Below, in pieces: positions 37,999 to 44,521 of a stretch of DNA of 64,000 nt. The notes beneath the pieces were generated by a model. It was not told the DNA's origin, searched no databases, and saw only the letters and a program-made list of their open reading frames with translations. The first letter of the stretch is position 1; each line of letters starts with the position of its first letter. Position numbers and translations under genes: made by a program. The stretch comes from Streptomyces ferrugineus (GTDB taxonomy: Bacteria; Actinomycetota; Actinomycetes; Streptomycetales; Streptomycetaceae): positions 3,906,001-3,970,000 of the forward strand of contig NZ_CP063373.1 in NCBI RefSeq assembly GCF_015160855.1. The letters run 5' to 3'.

Positions 37999-38030
37999 TT
38001 CCGACTTCCCTGCCGAAGGAGTGCTTTCCT

Positions 38031-38921
38031 GTGCGTGTCCTCGTCACCGGCGCGACCGGATTCATCGGGTCCGCCGTCGTCCGCGACCTGCTGCGAGCCG
38101 GGCACCAGGTCCTCGGGCTCGCCCGCTCGGACCGTTCCGCCACGGCGCTGAAGGAGGCCGGGGCCGAGGTGCGTCGGGGCGACCTCGACGACCTCGCCGG
38201 CCTGCGGGAGGCGGCGGCCGCAGTGGACGGCGTCGCCCATCTGGCGTTCATCCACGACTTCTCGAACTACCCGGCCGCCGCACAGGCCGACGAGCGGGCC
38301 ATCGAGGCGATGGGCCAGGCGCTGGCGGGCAGCGACCGCCCTCTCGTCGTCACCGCCGGCACCATGTCGCTCGCGCCGGGCCGCACCGCCACGGAGGAGG
38401 ACGTGGTCGACCCGCGGACAACCGCGGTGCCCCGCCGGTCCGAACAGGCCGCTGCGGCGTTCGTCGAGCGGGGTGTACGGGTCTCGGTGGTGCGGCTTCC
38501 GCCGTCGGTGCACGGCGAGGGCGACCACGGCTTCGTCCCGCGTCTGATCGAGATCGCCCGCGAGAAGGGCGTCTCGGCCTACCCAGGCGACGGCTCCAAC
38601 CGCTGGCCCGCCGTGCACCGCGTGGATGCGGCCCGTCTCTTCCGGCTGGCCCTGGAGGCGGCGCCCGCGGGCAGCAGGCTGCACGGCATCGACGACGAGG
38701 GCGTCCGGGTGCGTGACATCGCCGAGGTCTTCGGCCGCCACCTGAATCTGCCGATGACCTCGATTCCTCGTGAGGAGGCGGCGGGTCACTTCGGCTGGCT
38801 CGGCCCCCTCTTCGCGGCGGACGCCCCGGCGTCCAGCGCGCTCACCCGCGAGCTGCTGGGCTGGCAGCCCACGCGGCAGGGCCTCCTGGCGGACCTCGAA
38901 GCGGGCCACTACTTCAACTGA
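38031..38921 (+). CDS. NAD-dependent epimerase/dehydratase (extended SDR)
   Basis: A 296-residue protein. N-terminal Rossmann motif VRVLVTGATGFIGSAVVRDLL, then AEVRRGDLDDLAGL and AVDGVAHLAFIHDFS, catalytic-region RRSEQAAAAFVERGVRVSVVRLPPSVHGEGDHGF; the usual YxxxK tyrosine is not obvious (the corresponding site reads RSEQAAA), as in other atypical NAD(P)-binding SDRs of this branch (YlbE/NmrA-like). Substrate unknown. GTG at 38031 is 11 nt after GAAGGAG. It is divergent from the LysR gene. Confidence 0.8.
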   Translation: MRVLVTGATGFIGSAVVRDLLRAGHQVLGLARSDRSATALKEAGAEVRRGDLDDLAGLREAAAAVDGVAHLAFIHDFSNYPAAAQADERAIEAMGQALAGSDRPLVVTAGTMSLAPGRTATEEDVVDPRTTAVPRRSEQAAAAFVERGVRVSVVRLPPSVHGEGDHGFVPRLIEIAREKGVSAYPGDGSNRWPAVHRVDAARLFRLALEAAPAGSRLHGIDDEGVRVRDIAEVFGRHLNLPMTSIPREEAAGHFGWLGPLFAADAPASSALTRELLGWQPTRQGLLADLEAGHYFN

Positions 38922-38966
38922 GGGCCGGCACCACCGGCGTTCGACCGACGCCGGCCGGCTGTGCGC

Positions 38967-39695
38967 TCAGCGCGCCTCGGACTCCCGAACCTGCTCCGCC
39001 GTGGGCGCGGTGCCGCCGAGGTGGGCCGGCATCCACCAGGTGTCGCTCGCGTCCTTGGGACGCACGGGGTAGGCGCGCTGGGCGGCCTCCAGGAGTTCCT
39101 GCACCCGCTCGCGCAGCTGGCGGGTGATCGCGCCCGCGTACTTGTCCTTGGAGGCCTCGAGAGCCTCGCCGACCCGGATGGTGATCGGGATGTGGCTGCG
39201 CCTGAAGTTGCGCGGGTGGCCCTTGGTCCACAGGCGCTGGGTGCCCCACACGGCCATCGGGATCAGCGGTACGCCCGCCTCCTGGGCCAGCCGGGCGGCG
39301 CCCGACTTGAAGCTCTTCAGCGTGAACGACTGCGAGATCGTGGCCTCCGGGAAGACCCCGACGATCTCGCCGGACTTCAGCGAGTCCAGCGCGTGGGCGT
39401 ACGCCGCCTCACCCTGCTCGCGGTCCACCGGGATGTGCTTCATGCCGCGCATCAGCGGACCGGAGATCCGGTGCCGGAACACGGACTCCTTCGCCATGAA
39501 GCGCACCAGGCGCTTCTGCGGGAGCGCCGCGAGCCCGTTGAAGACGAAGTCCAGATAGCTGATGTGGTTGCTCACCAGCACGGCGCCGCCCGAGCGCGGA
39601 ATGTTCTCCGACCCCTTGCAGTCGATCTTGAGGTCCCACGCCTTGAACAATGTCTGGGCGAAGCCGACGACGGGACGGTAGACAAGCTCTGCCAT
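38967..39695 (-). CDS. 1-acyl-sn-glycerol-3-phosphate acyltransferase (PlsC family)
   Basis: A 242-residue PlsC-type acyltransferase. Catalytic HX4D is in VLVSNHISYLDFVFNG, followed by HIPVDREQGEAA, the glycerol-phosphate motif FPEATISQSFTLKSFKSGAARLA (variant of EGTRS) and IPMAVWGTQRLW. It acylates lysophosphatidate in membrane phospholipid synthesis; a streptomycete genome usually has several paralogues. ATG at 39695 begins MAELVYRPVVGF. Confidence 0.92.
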   Translation of the reverse strand: MAELVYRPVVGFAQTLFKAWDLKIDCKGSENIPRSGGAVLVSNHISYLDFVFNGLAALPQKRLVRFMAKESVFRHRISGPLMRGMKHIPVDREQGEAAYAHALDSLKSGEIVGVFPEATISQSFTLKSFKSGAARLAQEAGVPLIPMAVWGTQRLWTKGHPRNFRRSHIPITIRVGEALEASKDKYAGAITRQLRERVQELLEAAQRAYPVRPKDASDTWWMPAHLGGTAPTAEQVRESEAR

Positions 39696-39883
39696 GGACG
39701 GGGTGGACCCTTCCTTCTCTGCCTGGGAAGGAAGCTCCCAGTGGGAAAGTTACGCAGCCGTAGGTTTACGGCTTGCCGCAGATCGTGCCCCAAGAACGGC
39801 CGAGGGCCAAGCCCAAGTGCCTGGGAACGGCGAGATCCTCGTCACGTCCACCCCTTGATCCACCTCGGACTTTGGCGTCGCCT

Positions 39884-40300
39884 TTACCCGGCGGCGGCCG
39901 TGAACCGCCGTGCGAGCAGGTACATCTCGCACCCCAGGCAGTAGCCGAACACGGCGTTCAGGAACGCCGCCGCGAGCGCCGCCCCGGTCGCGGCGAGACC
40001 CAGCCAGTCCGGCCCGAGCGTGTACCCGATCAGCCCGACGCCCGCGAAGACCAGTCCCACCGCCTGGGCGAACCGCGGCGGCTGCGGCGCCTCGAACTCC
40101 GTCGGCGGCCCGATCCGCGGCCGCACGGCCCTGCGGAACAGCCGGCCGTACGGCGAACGGCCCACCCCGCCCGCCGCGCCCAGCGCGAACGCCAGCGTCT
40201 GCCAGGCCAGCAGCCAGGCGCTGCCGGTGACCAGAACGACCGCGAGCACCACGGTCGTCACGGCCGCCCCGAAGCGCGGCCCCCTCACGTCGATGTCCAT
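39884..40300 (-). CDS. DUF4395 family membrane protein
   Basis: A 138-residue protein with three to four membrane helices and the DUF4395 start VRGPRFGAAVTTVVLAVVLVTGSAWLL; RLFRRAVRPRIGPPTEFEAPQPPRFAQAVGLVF is the conserved central loop. The helix FGYCLGCEMYLLARR carries a CxxC, which together with the divergent thioredoxin suggests a thiol-redox membrane partner (inference). ATG at 40300. Confidence 0.87.
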   Translation of the reverse strand: MDIDVRGPRFGAAVTTVVLAVVLVTGSAWLLAWQTLAFALGAAGGVGRSPYGRLFRRAVRPRIGPPTEFEAPQPPRFAQAVGLVFAGVGLIGYTLGPDWLGLAATGAALAAAFLNAVFGYCLGCEMYLLARRFTAAAG

Positions 40301-40377
40301 GAATCAAGCATTCCGCATGGGAAAGGCTTCTGGGGAGTCGGGAATCTTTGCGGTCCCGTGAACGCTTGAGCAGGGTG

Positions 40378-40791
40378 ATGACCGGACTTGTGGTGTGCGT
40401 GGCGGTGCTCGCGGCGGCGAGCGCCTACGGAGTGCTGCATCGGCGGCGGAGCGGGAGAGTAAGGGTGCGCGGGCGCGACGACGGAAAGCGGCTCGGGGCG
40501 GCCGAGTTGGGCACCGGGCTCGGCGAGCGCGCCACCCTCGTGCAGTTCTCCAGCGCCTTCTGCGCGCCCTGCCGGGCCACCCGGCGCGTGCTCGGCGAGG
40601 TGGCCGGCATGGTCCCGGGTGTGACCCATGTCGAGATCGACGCCGAGGACCACCTGGACCTGGTCCGCCGGCTCGACATCCTCAAGACCCCGACCGTGCT
40701 GCTCCTCGACGCCGACGGCAACGTGGTGCGGCGGGCCACCGGTCAGCCGCGCAAGGCGGATGTGATCGCCGCCCTGGGGGAAGCGGTCTGA
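40378..40791 (+). CDS. membrane-anchored thioredoxin-like protein
   Basis: A 137-residue protein with an N-terminal membrane helix (TGLVVCVAVLAAASAYGVL) and a thioredoxin fold bearing the active site FSSAFCAPCRATRRVL (CAPC) and the cis-Pro segment DILKTPTVLLLDADG. It is divergent from the DUF4395 gene and probably forms a redox pair with it. ATG at 40378; a GTG three bases earlier is also possible. Confidence 0.87.
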   Translation: MTGLVVCVAVLAAASAYGVLHRRRSGRVRVRGRDDGKRLGAAELGTGLGERATLVQFSSAFCAPCRATRRVLGEVAGMVPGVTHVEIDAEDHLDLVRRLDILKTPTVLLLDADGNVVRRATGQPRKADVIAALGEAV

Positions 40792-40874
40792 GGGGCCGTG
40801 ACGCGAGGGTGAGTCATCTCCCACATCGCGGAACGTACTTGACTGTGTGCACCAGCTATCGTCAGCCTGACCGT

Positions 40875-40955
40875 ATGCCTGAGGAACTCCTTCTCTTCGG
40901 ACGGGCCCACGTCGATCTGGCCCGCACCGCGAGCGCGTGCTGTCCGAGCTGTTGA
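40875..40955 (+). CDS. 26-codon cysteine-ending leader peptide upstream of the flavin reductase
   Basis: MPEELLLFGRAHVDLARTASACCPSC* matches the actinobacterial leader-peptide pattern HVDLxRxxSAxC found before sulfur assimilation genes; three of its last five residues are Cys, encoded TGC-TGT-CCG-AGC-TGT. The ATG lies about 15 nt from a possible -10 (TATCGT), so the transcript may be nearly leaderless. In mycobacteria such poly-Cys peptides act as cysteine-responsive attenuators. The 44-nt gap to the flavin reductase start shows no strong terminator, so coupling by ribosome stalling is the likely mode. Too short for ordinary gene calling. Confidence 0.75.
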   Translation: MPEELLLFGRAHVDLARTASACCPSC

Positions 40956-40999
40956 ACGGCCACGGATCCCCACGTCTCTCCTCGCAGAAGGACAACTCC

Positions 41000-41509
41000 A
41001 TGACGGCCATCTCCGGCCTCGGCACCCCTCGGCTCGCCTCACCGGACCTGCTCCGCTCGGTCTTCCGGCGCCATGCCGCCGGAGTGGCCGTGATCACGGC
41101 CACGGGTGAGACGGGCCCGGTCGGCTTCACCGCCACCTCCCTCACCTCCGTCTCCGCCGAGCCCCCGATGCTCTCCTTCGGCATCGGAACCGGTGCCTCC
41201 AGCTGGCCCGCGATAGCCGCCACGGACCACGTCGGTGTCCACATACTCGGTGAGCACCAACAGGAGCTGGCCGCCACCTTCGCCCGCAGCGGCGCCGACC
41301 GCTTCGGGCCGCCCACGGTCTGGCGCGAGGGCCCCGAAGGCGTTCCGCTGCTCGACGACGTCCCGGCCTGGATGGTGTGCCGGGTGGTGGGGCGGGTGCC
41401 GGCCGGCGATCACCGCATCGTGCTGGCCGAGGTCGTCCTGGGCGACCCCACGGGTCCCGGGCAGCCGCTCGTGTACCACCAGGGCAGGTTCAACGGCCTA
41501 CGTGACTGA
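41000..41509 (+). CDS. flavin reductase family protein
   Basis: A 169-residue FMN-binding split-barrel protein: LRSVFRRHAAGVAVITATGETGPVGFTATSLTSVSAEPPMLSFGIG is the family core with the flavin site, followed by HVGVHILGEHQQELAATFA and the C-terminal PLVYHQGRFNGL. Such reductases supply reduced FMN to monooxygenases, for instance those releasing sulfite from sulfonates. The Cys-type leader peptide upstream points to a sulfur starvation role. ATG at 41000 follows AGAAGGA; the in-frame reading from 40937 overlaps the leader peptide. Confidence 0.9.
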   Translation: MTAISGLGTPRLASPDLLRSVFRRHAAGVAVITATGETGPVGFTATSLTSVSAEPPMLSFGIGTGASSWPAIAATDHVGVHILGEHQQELAATFARSGADRFGPPTVWREGPEGVPLLDDVPAWMVCRVVGRVPAGDHRIVLAEVVLGDPTGPGQPLVYHQGRFNGLRD

Positions 41510-41751
41510 CGTCACCGGACTCCTGTGACCGAACCGGCGTTCCGTGGTTCTGCGAAGCCGTCGAATTCCGATTACGCTGCGTTGCAAAGGTCACAGTTCA
41601 AAGCGCTTGCTTAGCGGGGACGAACTGGGTGTACTGACGAGTAATATTTCGTTCGGAGCGCGGGTCGCCCCGAACGGGATCGGCCGCTTGGGGCGCCTAT
41701 GCTGCCTGCAAGTAGGCAGCAGAGAAATGTCGACGCAGTAGGAGAGCCGGC
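41510..41751. promoter_or_regulatory. etfBA promoter region with a palindrome
   Basis: TACTGACGAGTA at 41632-41643 is an inverted repeat (TACT/AGTA around GACG) about 110 bp before the etfB start, a candidate operator. AAAGCGCTTGC at 41610 resembles a LacI-type half palindrome. Regulators unknown. Confidence 0.35.
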
Positions 41752-42540
41752 GTGAGCTTGAGGATCGTTGTCACCGTGAAGTACGTGCCCGACGCCACTG
41801 GCGACCGGCACTTCGCCGATGACCTGACCGTCGACCGGGACGACGTGGACGGTCTGCTCTCCGAACTCGACGAGTACGCGGTCGAGCAGGCGCTGCAGAT
41901 CTCCGAGAACTCCGACGACGACGTGGAGATCACCGTTCTGACGGTGGGCCCGGAGGACGCCAAGGACGCGCTGCGCAAGGCGCTGTCCATGGGCGCGGAC
42001 AAGGCGATCCACGTCGAGGACGACGACCTGCACGGCACCGACGCGATGGGCACCTCGCTGGTGCTGGCCAAGGCGGTCGAGAAGGCCGGCTACGACCTGG
42101 TGATCTCCGGTATGGCCTCCACGGACGGCACCATGGGTGTCGTACCGGCCCTGCTGGCCGAGCGTCTGGGTGTCCCGCAGGTGACGCTGCTGTCCGAGGT
42201 CTCCGTCGAGGACGGCACGGTCAAGGGCCGCCGGGACGGCGACGCCGCCTCCGAGCAGCTCGAGGCCTCCCTGCCGGCCGTCGTGTCGGTCACCGACCAG
42301 TCGGGCGAGGCGCGTTACCCGTCCTTCAAGGGCATCATGGCCGCCAAGAAGAAGCCGGTTCAGTCCTGGGACCTGTCCGACCTCGACATCGAGGCGGAGG
42401 AGGTCGGTCTCGAGGGTGCCTACACCGTCGTGGACGCCGCGGCCGAGCGCCCGGCCCGTACCGCCGGCACGATCGTCAAGGACGAGGGCGAGGGCGGCAA
42501 GCAGCTCGCTGAGTTCCTCGCGAGCCAGAAGTTCATCTGA
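41752..42540 (+). CDS. etfB: electron transfer flavoprotein, beta subunit
   Basis: A 262-residue ETF beta/FixA protein with VVTVKYVPDATGDRHF, LDEYAVEQALQI, ALSMGADKAIHVEDDDLHGTDAMGTSLVLAKAV, DLVISGMASTDGTMGVVPALLAERLGVPQVTLL and the ETF beta signature SFKGIMAAKKKPVQSW. It pairs with EtfA to carry electrons from acyl-CoA dehydrogenases to the respiratory chain. GTG start after AGGAG. The AidB-like acyl-CoA dehydrogenase at 7917 is a conceivable partner. First gene of an etfB-etfA operon (51 bp gap). Confidence 0.96.
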   Translation: MSLRIVVTVKYVPDATGDRHFADDLTVDRDDVDGLLSELDEYAVEQALQISENSDDDVEITVLTVGPEDAKDALRKALSMGADKAIHVEDDDLHGTDAMGTSLVLAKAVEKAGYDLVISGMASTDGTMGVVPALLAERLGVPQVTLLSEVSVEDGTVKGRRDGDAASEQLEASLPAVVSVTDQSGEARYPSFKGIMAAKKKPVQSWDLSDLDIEAEEVGLEGAYTVVDAAAERPARTAGTIVKDEGEGGKQLAEFLASQKFI

Positions 42541-42591
42541 GCTCGACTTCGCTGACCGCCCCTCAAGTTTCGCAAGCAGGAGAGCATTCCC

Positions 42592-43554
42592 ATGGCTGAA
42601 GTTCTCGTCTACGTCGACCACGTGGACGGTGCCGTCCGCAAGCCCACCCTGGAGCTGCTGACCCTGGCTCGCCGCGTCGGCGAGCCGGTCGCCGTCGCAC
42701 TGGGCAACGGCGCCGCCGACACCGCCGCCACCCTCGCCGAGCACGGCGCCGTCAAGGTCCTCACCCACGAGGCGTCCGAGTACGCCGACTACCTGGTCGT
42801 CCCGAAGGTCGACGCCCTGCAGGCCGCCGTCGAGGCCGTCTCCCCGGCCGCCGTCCTGGTGCCGTCCTCCGCCGAGGGCAAGGAGATCGCCGCCCGTCTG
42901 GCGCTGCGCATCGGCTCGGGCATCATCACCGACGCCGTCGATCTGGAGGCCGGCGACGAGGGCCCGGTGGCCACCCAGTCGGTGTTCGCCGCCTCCTTCA
43001 CCACCAAGTCCCGTGTCTCCAAGGGCACCCCGGTCATCACCGTCAAGCCGAACAGCGCGGCCGTGGAGCCGGCTGCGGCGGCCGGTGCGGTCGAGGCCCT
43101 GGCCGTCACCTTCTCGGCGCAGGCGACCGGTACGAAGGTCACCGGCCGCACGGCGCGTGAGTCGACGGGCCGTCCGGAGCTGACCGAGGCCGCGATCGTG
43201 GTCTCCGGTGGCCGTGGTGTCAACGGCGCGGAGAACTTCGCGATCATCGAGGCGCTCGCCGACTCCCTCGGCGCGGCCGTCGGTGCCTCGCGTGCCGCGG
43301 TGGACGCGGGCTGGTACCCGCACACCAACCAGGTCGGCCAGACCGGCAAGAGCGTGTCCCCGCAGCTGTACATCGCCTCCGGCATCTCGGGTGCGATCCA
43401 GCACCGGGCCGGTATGCAGACCTCGAAGACGATCGTGGCGATCAACAAGGACGCCGAGGCCCCGATCTTCGAGCTGGTCGACTACGGCGTCGTCGGCGAC
43501 CTCTTCGACGTCGTCCCGGCCCTGACCGAGGAGATCAAGACCCGCAAGGGCTGA
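42592..43554 (+). CDS. etfA: electron transfer flavoprotein, alpha subunit
   Basis: A 320-residue ETF alpha/FixB protein. The N-terminal domain starts EVLVYVDHVDGAVRKPTLELLTLARR. The C-terminal FAD-binding domain is intact: AAIVVSGGRGVNG, LGAAVGASRAAVDAGWYPHTNQVGQTGKSVSPQLYIASGISGAIQHRAGM and TIVAINKDAEAPIFELVDYGVVGDLFDVVPAL. It binds FAD and forms the heterodimer with EtfB. ATG with AGGAG upstream; a strong hairpin ends the operon. Confidence 0.96.
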   Translation: MAEVLVYVDHVDGAVRKPTLELLTLARRVGEPVAVALGNGAADTAATLAEHGAVKVLTHEASEYADYLVVPKVDALQAAVEAVSPAAVLVPSSAEGKEIAARLALRIGSGIITDAVDLEAGDEGPVATQSVFAASFTTKSRVSKGTPVITVKPNSAAVEPAAAAGAVEALAVTFSAQATGTKVTGRTARESTGRPELTEAAIVVSGGRGVNGAENFAIIEALADSLGAAVGASRAAVDAGWYPHTNQVGQTGKSVSPQLYIASGISGAIQHRAGMQTSKTIVAINKDAEAPIFELVDYGVVGDLFDVVPALTEEIKTRKG

Positions 43555-43575
43555 TCACCACGCAGGCACAGCGAG

Positions 43576-43607
43576 GCCCCCATGACCGTGTCGACGGTCA
43601 TGGGGGC
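43576..43607. terminator. bidirectional terminator after etfA
   Basis: GCCCCCATGACCGT pairs perfectly with its complement (14 bp) around a GTCG loop, 21 bp after the etfA stop and 6 bp before the stop of the convergent hydrolase gene. Confidence 0.9.
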
Positions 43608-43612
43608 TCGTG

Positions 43613-44521
43613 TCATCCCAGGGTCAGATACGCCTGCACCGGCAGATGGTCGCTCGGGAACTGTCCGTCGTCGGAGAACGTGTTGATCACCGCCCGGTGC
43701 GCCGTGACACCGGGTGTGCTCAGGATCCAGTCGATGCGGTCGCCGTTCGGGGTCAGCGGCTGGTAGCCGTGGAAGGTCGCGTACAGCGCGCTGCGCTCGC
43801 GCGCGGTGTCCCAGGTGTCGACGAGACCGGAGCCGAGCAGCGAGTCGTACACCGCGTTCTCGTGGGCGGCGACATTGAAGTCCCCGGTCACCAGCACCGG
43901 CAGCGAGCGGTCGAACCCGGCGATCCGCTCGGCGATGAGCGAGGCGCTGCGCTCGCGCGCGTACTGGCTCACATGGTCGAAGTGGGTGTTGAGGGCGTAG
44001 AACTCCCGCCCGTCGTCGGTCAGATCGCGGAAGCGGACCCAGGTGACCATACGGGCGAAGCGGGCACCCCAGGTGTTGGAGCCGATCACGGCCGGGGTGT
44101 CGGAGAGCCAGAAGTGGTCGTACTCGGTCGGGCGCAGGCGCCGGGAGTCGTAGAAGATCGCCATGGATTCGTCGCGGCTGCCGTGCAGCCGTCCGGTGCC
44201 GACCCAGTCGTAGTGCGGGCCGAGGTCGGAGTCGATGTCCAGGAGCTGGGAGAAGATCCCCTCCTGGGTGCCGATGACATGCGGGGCCTCGCGGCGCAGC
44301 AACTCGCGCATCACCGGTCTGCGCACGGTCCAGCTGTTGGGTTCCGTCGTGCTCGCGAAGCGCAGGTTGAAGGACATGACCCGCAGGTGGCCGCGGGGCG
44401 GACGCTCGCCCGCCGAGGCGGCGGACGTGGGCAGTGCTGTACTGGAGAGGGGCGCGGTGACCGCGGCGGCCAGCGCGACTTTCAGGCCCAGGCGGCGCGT
44501 GACCCGGCTGTGGTTCGGCAC
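43613..44521 (-). CDS. secreted endonuclease/exonuclease/phosphatase family hydrolase
   Basis: A 302-residue EEP-fold enzyme with an N-terminal export signal (RRLGLKVALAAAVTAPLSSTALPTSAASA). Catalytic features: LRVMSFNLRFAS (Asn), GTQEGIFSQLLDI (metal Glu), ALNTHFDHVSQYAR (His), VLVTGDFNVAAHE (Asp-x-Asn) and DGQFPSDHLPVQAYL (Ser-Asp-His). It belongs near the exodeoxyribonuclease/sphingomyelinase group; extracellular DNase or phosphodiesterase activity is possible. GTG at 44521. Terminates against the etfA hairpin. Confidence 0.87.
   Translation of the reverse strand: MPNHSRVTRRLGLKVALAAAVTAPLSSTALPTSAASAGERPPRGHLRVMSFNLRFASTTEPNSWTVRRPVMRELLRREAPHVIGTQEGIFSQLLDIDSDLGPHYDWVGTGRLHGSRDESMAIFYDSRRLRPTEYDHFWLSDTPAVIGSNTWGARFARMVTWVRFRDLTDDGREFYALNTHFDHVSQYARERSASLIAERIAGFDRSLPVLVTGDFNVAAHENAVYDSLLGSGLVDTWDTARERSALYATFHGYQPLTPNGDRIDWILSTPGVTAHRAVINTFSDDGQFPSDHLPVQAYLTLG

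Follow-up and report, generated by a model that had tools for sequence, protein, structure and literature searches.

A leader peptide with a constant UGU cysteine codon as a candidate translational attenuator of a Streptomyces flavin reductase gene

Amino-acid attenuators are usually characterised by the amino acid that they count. A short open reading frame ahead of a flavin reductase gene of Streptomyces ferrugineus, in which one synonymous codon is fixed at a fixed place of the peptide, raises the question as to whether cysteine is sensed by the codon, by the nascent chain, or by both, a question that is directly testable with a one-base change. In addition, a common predicted control emerges for this enzyme and for further actinobacterial genes that follow leaders of this type. 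The reading that we favor, and which we judge to have slightly better than an even chance of being right, is that the leader is a leaderless, cysteine-responsive translational attenuator of the flavin reductase.

The leader, its family and its predicted promoter

The window, that is, the whole stretch of 64,000 nucleotides that was analysed, carries the leader (MPEELLLFGRAHVDLARTASACCPSC, 26 codons followed by a stop) at positions 40875 to 40955 of the plus strand, on which all features described here lie unless otherwise stated. Its stop is 44 nt apart from the ATG of the reductase gene (41000 to 41509), whose 169-residue product matches PF01613 (Flavin_Reduct) at 138 bits and whose Shine-Dalgarno sequence, AGAAGGA, occupies 40986 to 40992. 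An overlapping open frame would allow the reductase to start at a GTG at 40937; this start was dropped because the Shine-Dalgarno sequence belongs to the ATG at 41000. A Cys-to-stop hairpin lies at 40942-40967 of the leader region. The Rfam search of 38000-44000 gave two matches, both below their gathering scores and neither of them on the leader. To the 5' side lie a thioredoxin-like gene and then a DUF4395 gene, divergent from the leader, while the reductase is followed by an ETF beta-type gene and by a gene that reads, from its translation, as the alpha partner. Loose sequence patterns place the end of a thioredoxin-type gene before the reductase at 102 of 127 loci; on the other side, 113 of 120 loci show an etfB-type start. 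The gene setting is stable, yet it does not name the partner of the reductase.

The leader scored 29.0 bits against NF042934 ('putative leader peptide', cut-off 27) and 27.3 bits in the genome search, and it belongs to this already catalogued family. Against NF042936, the Ms4527A Cys-rich leader, it reached 20 bits, below the curated cut-off of 45. Nine NF042934 matches occur in the host genome, eight of them over the cut-off (the leader at 40875 and seven others). All 41 genomes of the genus contained the family and none of 14 control genomes did; across the class it was found in 144 of 197 genomes at E 0.001, with 128 over the cut-off. The genes that follow the sister leaders, named from our own reading of the translations of the nearest recognisable gene, include a cysteine synthase (401 nt on), a cysteine dioxygenase, a sulfite reductase, a rhodanese, and two sulfonate-type binding proteins. 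A single name stems from a family search: the leader at 8231333 is followed by a luciferase-like monooxygenase, with a PF00296 match at 8230175-8231080. The original prediction had assigned the leader to a sulfur leader-peptide family and tied it to sulfur acquisition; the assignment is borne out by the score and by the sister leaders before genes read as sulfur genes, and the tie is supported as likely, by way of the same family and sister leaders.

The comparison before homologous reductases covered 127 orthologous loci (30 and 97 from two gatherings, one being a 61% second copy), with two truncated orthologs (G138, G118) kept outside this set. The peptide pattern HVDLxRxxSAxC, which had been predicted in the 26-codon frame and is indeed there (codons 12-23, 40908 to 40943), proved intact in 83 of the 127. 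Its recurrence in these loci, together with the 0 of 14 control genomes, ruled out a chance reading frame at 40875. At the remaining 44 loci the motif had decayed, the leader was shortened, or no leader was found. On the reductase tree (125 genes, without L129 and without L139, the 61% second copy of G040), the intact and non-intact conditions are separated by 21 state changes. Two further sets also contained intact motifs, one of 80 named loci (54 intact) and one of 24 later loci (18 intact); the three sets possibly overlap in species, and their counts are not summed. The loci that depart from the motif take several forms. In L055, L064, L068, and L083, the leader body is lost and the conserved promoter runs directly into the reductase frame, while L133, L135, L136, and L137 hold a 13-14 codon remnant ending near the reductase start. 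In L226, L234, L239, L241, L244, L247, and relatives, the Cys and the motif are both lost and the leader ends in ARVRRPGR, with promoter position and open frame retained.

Upstream of the leader, a -35-like TTGACT (40839 to 40844) and a -10-like CAGCCT, with C as its first base (40863 to 40868), form a predicted leaderless promoter. The latter element lies 6 nt before the ATG, whose A would therefore be the first transcribed base. A strict sigma-70 scan of the window locus found no promoter. When the motif was searched independently of the promoter, the Cys of 81 of 83 matches lay exactly 22 codons after a start codon, and the same 81 had TTGA 35-37 nt before that start; CANNNT stood at -12 to -7 in 77 of the 83. 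This spacing suggests the geometry of a leaderless transcript. A classical transcription attenuator would be marked by an intrinsic terminator between leader and gene; no terminator-like site was found in 40700-41800, and control should therefore lie in translation. This agrees with what had been anticipated for the locus, namely no strong terminator in the 44-nt spacer and control through translation or an alternative structure, such control being supported by the predicted pairing of the Shine-Dalgarno sequence described below.

The constrained peptide and its cysteine codon

Since an earlier count of base changes had taken only motif-selected loci, the count was repeated on 96 leaders picked by promoter position and length with no motif criterion, 80 of which are motif-intact. 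On the tree, the motif codons change less at their first two positions than at the third: the changes at first, second, and third base were 5/6/18 for H, 8/9/14 for V, 2/3/13 for D, and 2/9/20 for L, and, for the later residues, 4/2/15 for R, 3/4/13 for A, 7/0/11 for S, and 2/2/9 for the second A. The unconstrained neighbouring codon 18 gave 22/12/16. The Cys codon 23 (TGT, 40941 to 40943) gave 3/0/0, so that third-base changes number zero here versus 2-21 elsewhere, the start codon excepted. This pattern implies that HVDLxRxxSA is held as a peptide, and that the Cys is held also as a codon.

Indeed, codon 23 is TGT in 83 of 83 intact leaders, in 54 of 54 named loci, and in 18 of 18 later loci, and it is TGT in all 92 leaders of the repeated count that have Cys at this place, the other four of the 96 having Gly or Arg; relatedness among the leaders makes such counts non-independent. 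In the reductases themselves, TGT makes up 0.7% of 139 Cys codons. The same holds family-wide, with TGT at the sensor position in 107 of 107 leaders (own genome 37/37, genus 30/30, class 40/40), a non-random sample composed of own-genome matches, the best-scoring match of roughly one per genome, and 40 picked by hand from the class listing. The other Cys codons of these leaders are TGC 125 times versus TGT 31 times, and leaders of the mycobacterial poly-Cys type (beginning AVDLCRVAGCCC) follow the TGT rule too. As the family HMM sees the peptide only, it is unable to select a codon. Neither the UGU rule nor a flavin-reductase target turned up in searches of the openly licensed literature or in the available passages of PMC1262725, PMC4633059, PMC8079986, PMC9031893, PMC13236596, PMC8632094, and PMC9094748.

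The leader had been read as a poly-Cys leader on account of its C-C-P-S-C ending. The ending is present at 40875, where the leader has three Cys, two of them adjacent, but it is not conserved: of the 83 intact leaders, 2 end in exactly this way, namely the window leader and that of L015, and the 83 have one Cys in 52 cases, two in 26, and three in 5. The poly-Cys reading must accordingly give way to that of a single UGU in a fixed place of a conserved 12-residue peptide; the constant Cys element is codon 23 only, with no Cys run.

Ribosome arrest peptides such as TnaC require residues of the nascent chain for arrest, and the constraint on the leader peptide would fit such a requirement. The alternative that fares best is a codon-specific nascent-chain arrest: a ribosome holding HVDLxRxxSAx in its exit tunnel and UGU in its A site would be arrested, cysteine or Cys-tRNA would either relieve or bring about the arrest, and the pairing of the Shine-Dalgarno sequence would be secondary. 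Such an arrest would account for a peptide-level constraint at a fixed distance from the Cys, for motif and spacing that are identical in class-wide samples, and for the exact codon at the sensor place in leaders whose other Cys codons are mostly TGC. However, HVDL is lost while UGU and the pairing are kept in L018, L046, L056, L061, L081, L097, and L102, among others, and we regard arrest as the principal device as unlikely, if a serious contender.

Predicted pairing of the leader start with the Shine-Dalgarno sequence

The favored reading, a translational attenuator, calls on the first codons of the leader. Codons 5-7, CTC CTT CTC (40887 to 40895), contain TCCTTCT, which is complementary to the AGAAGGA of the reductase. 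Codon 6 reads CTT in 71 of the 83, although CTT accounts for just 1.7% of 1565 Leu codons. At codon 5, third-base changes on the tree numbered 0 for the 83 leaders and 2 for the 96. For 63 of the 83 intact loci, with spacers of at most 60 nt and leaders of at most 28 codons, the helix was tested with 20 synonymous recodings of each leader. The mean predicted pairing probability of the Shine-Dalgarno core with leader codons 3-9 (nt 8-26) was 0.96. Recoding lowered the predicted Shine-Dalgarno pairing to 0.29, the real sequence exceeding all 20 recodings at 51 of 63 loci. In 16 of the 18 later loci the predicted pairing was 0.98, a value that carries no recoded control. A complete 6-bp CCUUCU:AGAAGG is possible in 67 of the 83 loci.

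The helix is a prediction that draws on codon choice and folding. Among the listed variants no compensatory change was found, the Shine-Dalgarno sequence hardly varying, and RNAalifold recovered the helix neither from a MAFFT alignment of 64 loci nor from the joined leader and Shine-Dalgarno pieces; on the full 64-locus alignment it paired the GUCC of the Cys-Pro codons with the GGAC of the Shine-Dalgarno sequence. The overall fold stability of the locus is unremarkable (z -0.77). Among 24 decayed leaders that were folded or tried, 14 keep a pairing of at least 0.75, three of them lacking the sensor Cys, and loss of the UGU was not associated with loss of the helix in this set. As a family-wide device the helix found no support, as just 2 of 18 other leaders stood out in a test for which starts and Shine-Dalgarno sites were assumed (none found for L168). 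These two, L006 and L171, precede genes read as rhodanese, and their predicted Shine-Dalgarno pairing exceeds nearly all recodings.

Ribosomes were then represented by masking parts of the leader. The mean predicted Shine-Dalgarno pairing in free RNA was 0.88 over the 63 loci and 0.88 at the window locus. With a ribosome masked at the UGU (nt 52-80), the values were 0.93 and 0.98, respectively; with nt 22-80 masked they were 0.86 and 0.66, and with nt 1-80 masked, to imitate three queued ribosomes, 0.53 and 0.60. As the mask of a single ribosome at the UGU was ineffective, a stalled ribosome is read as acting through those queued behind it. Even under the full queue, 31 of 63 loci keep a predicted Shine-Dalgarno pairing of more than 0.5. 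The partners that remain lie in the spacer and on the reductase side, and the switch would therefore be partial. Masking nt 1-18 alone gave 0.51 and 0.57; a ribosome at the leader start thus equals the effect of the queue, and release need not depend on cysteine.

In the attenuator that we propose, transcription would start at the leader AUG and ribosomes would load directly on the leader. When cysteine is ample, they would clear the leader, and codons 5-7 would pair with the Shine-Dalgarno sequence and keep the reductase low. When charged tRNA-Cys is scarce, a ribosome would wait with the rare UGU of codon 23 in its A site, a pause that the conserved HVDLxRxxSAx in the exit tunnel probably prolongs. 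Ribosomes would queue behind it, the leader being about long enough for three, and the one at the leader start would cover codons 5-7, free the Shine-Dalgarno sequence, and raise the output of the reductase. We infer the transcription start, the stalling, the role of the nascent chain, the queueing, and the cysteine response from the data above. More tentatively, and with the balance of probability against it, HVDLxRxxSAx-UGU may be an ancient, class-wide cysteine sensor that tests charged tRNA-Cys at UGU rather than UGC, and that each sulfur gene reads via its own local RNA device, here the helix of leader start and Shine-Dalgarno sequence opened by a ribosome queue.

A somewhat less probable alternative than nascent-chain arrest is ordinary codon attenuation in the style of the mycobacterial poly-Cys leaders, in which one Cys-stalled ribosome would melt a sequestering structure such as UGUCC:GGACA. 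The family is the same, the poly-Cys leaders share the motif and the UGU, and the M. smegmatis cases are termed translation attenuation in the available part of PMC13236596. The GUCC:GGAC pairing from RNAalifold points the same way, as does the company of TGTCC and GGAC, which occur together in 69 of the 83 leaders (neither in 7, mixed cases 5 and 2); with 2-3 independent pairs behind it, this association is too small to be tested. In single folds, however, the share of the Shine-Dalgarno pairing that falls to the Cys-Pro region is 0.02, or 0.05 once nt 1-27 are masked. Pairing is predicted instead for a strand some 50 nt before the UGU, and a mask of nt 52-80 alone leaves it at 0.93.

We consider it improbable that the leader is non-regulatory, whether as a decaying relic or as a frame that just feeds ribosomes to the reductase by reinitiation. 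Such a leader would agree with the many loci that lack an intact motif and the repeated changes of state on the tree, with the four loci in which the promoter drives the reductase directly, and with the finding that a ribosome at the leader start suffices to lower the pairing. The constraint seen in the 83 intact loci, with their invariant TGT, argues against it, and a 44-nt spacer is long for coupling. Finally, leucine sensing, in which CTC CTT CTC would pair with the Shine-Dalgarno sequence as does the LEU element before leuA and a held ribosome would open the pairing, is hardly credible: the geometry resembles that given in the available part of PMC1262725, where leader Leu codons likewise pair with the Shine-Dalgarno sequence of the next gene, and CTT is rare, but the constant codon here is the Cys UGU at position 23, whereas 13 of 83 leaders have P, I, T, V, or H in place of the Leu at codon 5, and the sister leaders precede genes read as sulfur genes.

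Related leaders and the role of the reductase

The closest known relative is the NF042934 family itself, a cis_reg_atten entry, which the leader resembles in its score over the cut-off, its motif, and its sister leaders before apparent sulfur genes; it differs in its target, an HpaC/HsaB-like flavin reductase, and the entry names neither a codon nor a mechanism. Mycobacteria have leaderless short ORFs of the poly-Cys type, reportedly described by Canestrari et al. 2020 in Mol Microbiol. Like the mycobacterial leaders, represented by the related NF042936, the present one is a short ORF that is predicted to be leaderless and has Cys close to its end; in both no terminator was found and control is probably translational. 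The mycobacterial leaders carry a Cys run, whereas the present one has one constant Cys codon; here, furthermore, the Shine-Dalgarno sequence is predicted to be paired by the first codons of the leader. As far as their available parts go, PMC9031893 and PMC13236596 provide precedent in the Cys leaders of M. smegmatis.

The cys leader candidates of Seliverstov et al. 2005 (PMC1262725), from Mycobacterium, P. acnes, and B. longum, have Cys runs in the part of that paper available; they resemble the present leader in having Cys codons near the stop and no terminator, but Rho-dependent termination was proposed for them, in contrast to the Shine-Dalgarno pairing predicted here. The uORFC-8-2 before cysS of Rhodobacterales (PMC8632094, available part) is likewise a Cys-codon uORF attenuator, unlike this leader in its terminator-like stem and U run, its tandem Cys, and the dominance of UGC. 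In the available part of PMC8079986, eight leader peptides of S. lividans are given, none of them assigned to cysteine, with three Cys in the metL peptide.

The reductase is nearest to the FerA, HsaB, and HpaC-type models, while staying below every NCBIfam cut-off. The best 80 of 211 named relatives are Streptomyces or 'Actinobacteria bacterium' records, with identities of up to 94%. In 15 genomes from other genera of the order no match exceeded 50% identity, and the ortholog therefore looks confined to the genus. That the enzyme supplies FMNH2 to a sulfonate monooxygenase is a guess. In the host genome, the region G000:C1:8228922-8255287 (L199, L200) holds several matches to PF00296 (luciferase-like monooxygenases) and four to NF042934, of which one falls short of the cut-off; it is likely an organosulfur uptake region. 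The presence of reduced-flavin-type monooxygenases beside leaders suits the idea of FMNH2 supply, but an FMN_red-type reductase, at 8234333, also lies within this monooxygenase cluster at about 8.23 Mb.

The DUF4395 gene of the window (39884-40300, minus strand), the second gene 5' of the leader, has no NF042934 match beside it. In other actinobacterial families (L169, L170, L173, L176, L187, L198), the same leader type precedes a gene read as DUF4395.
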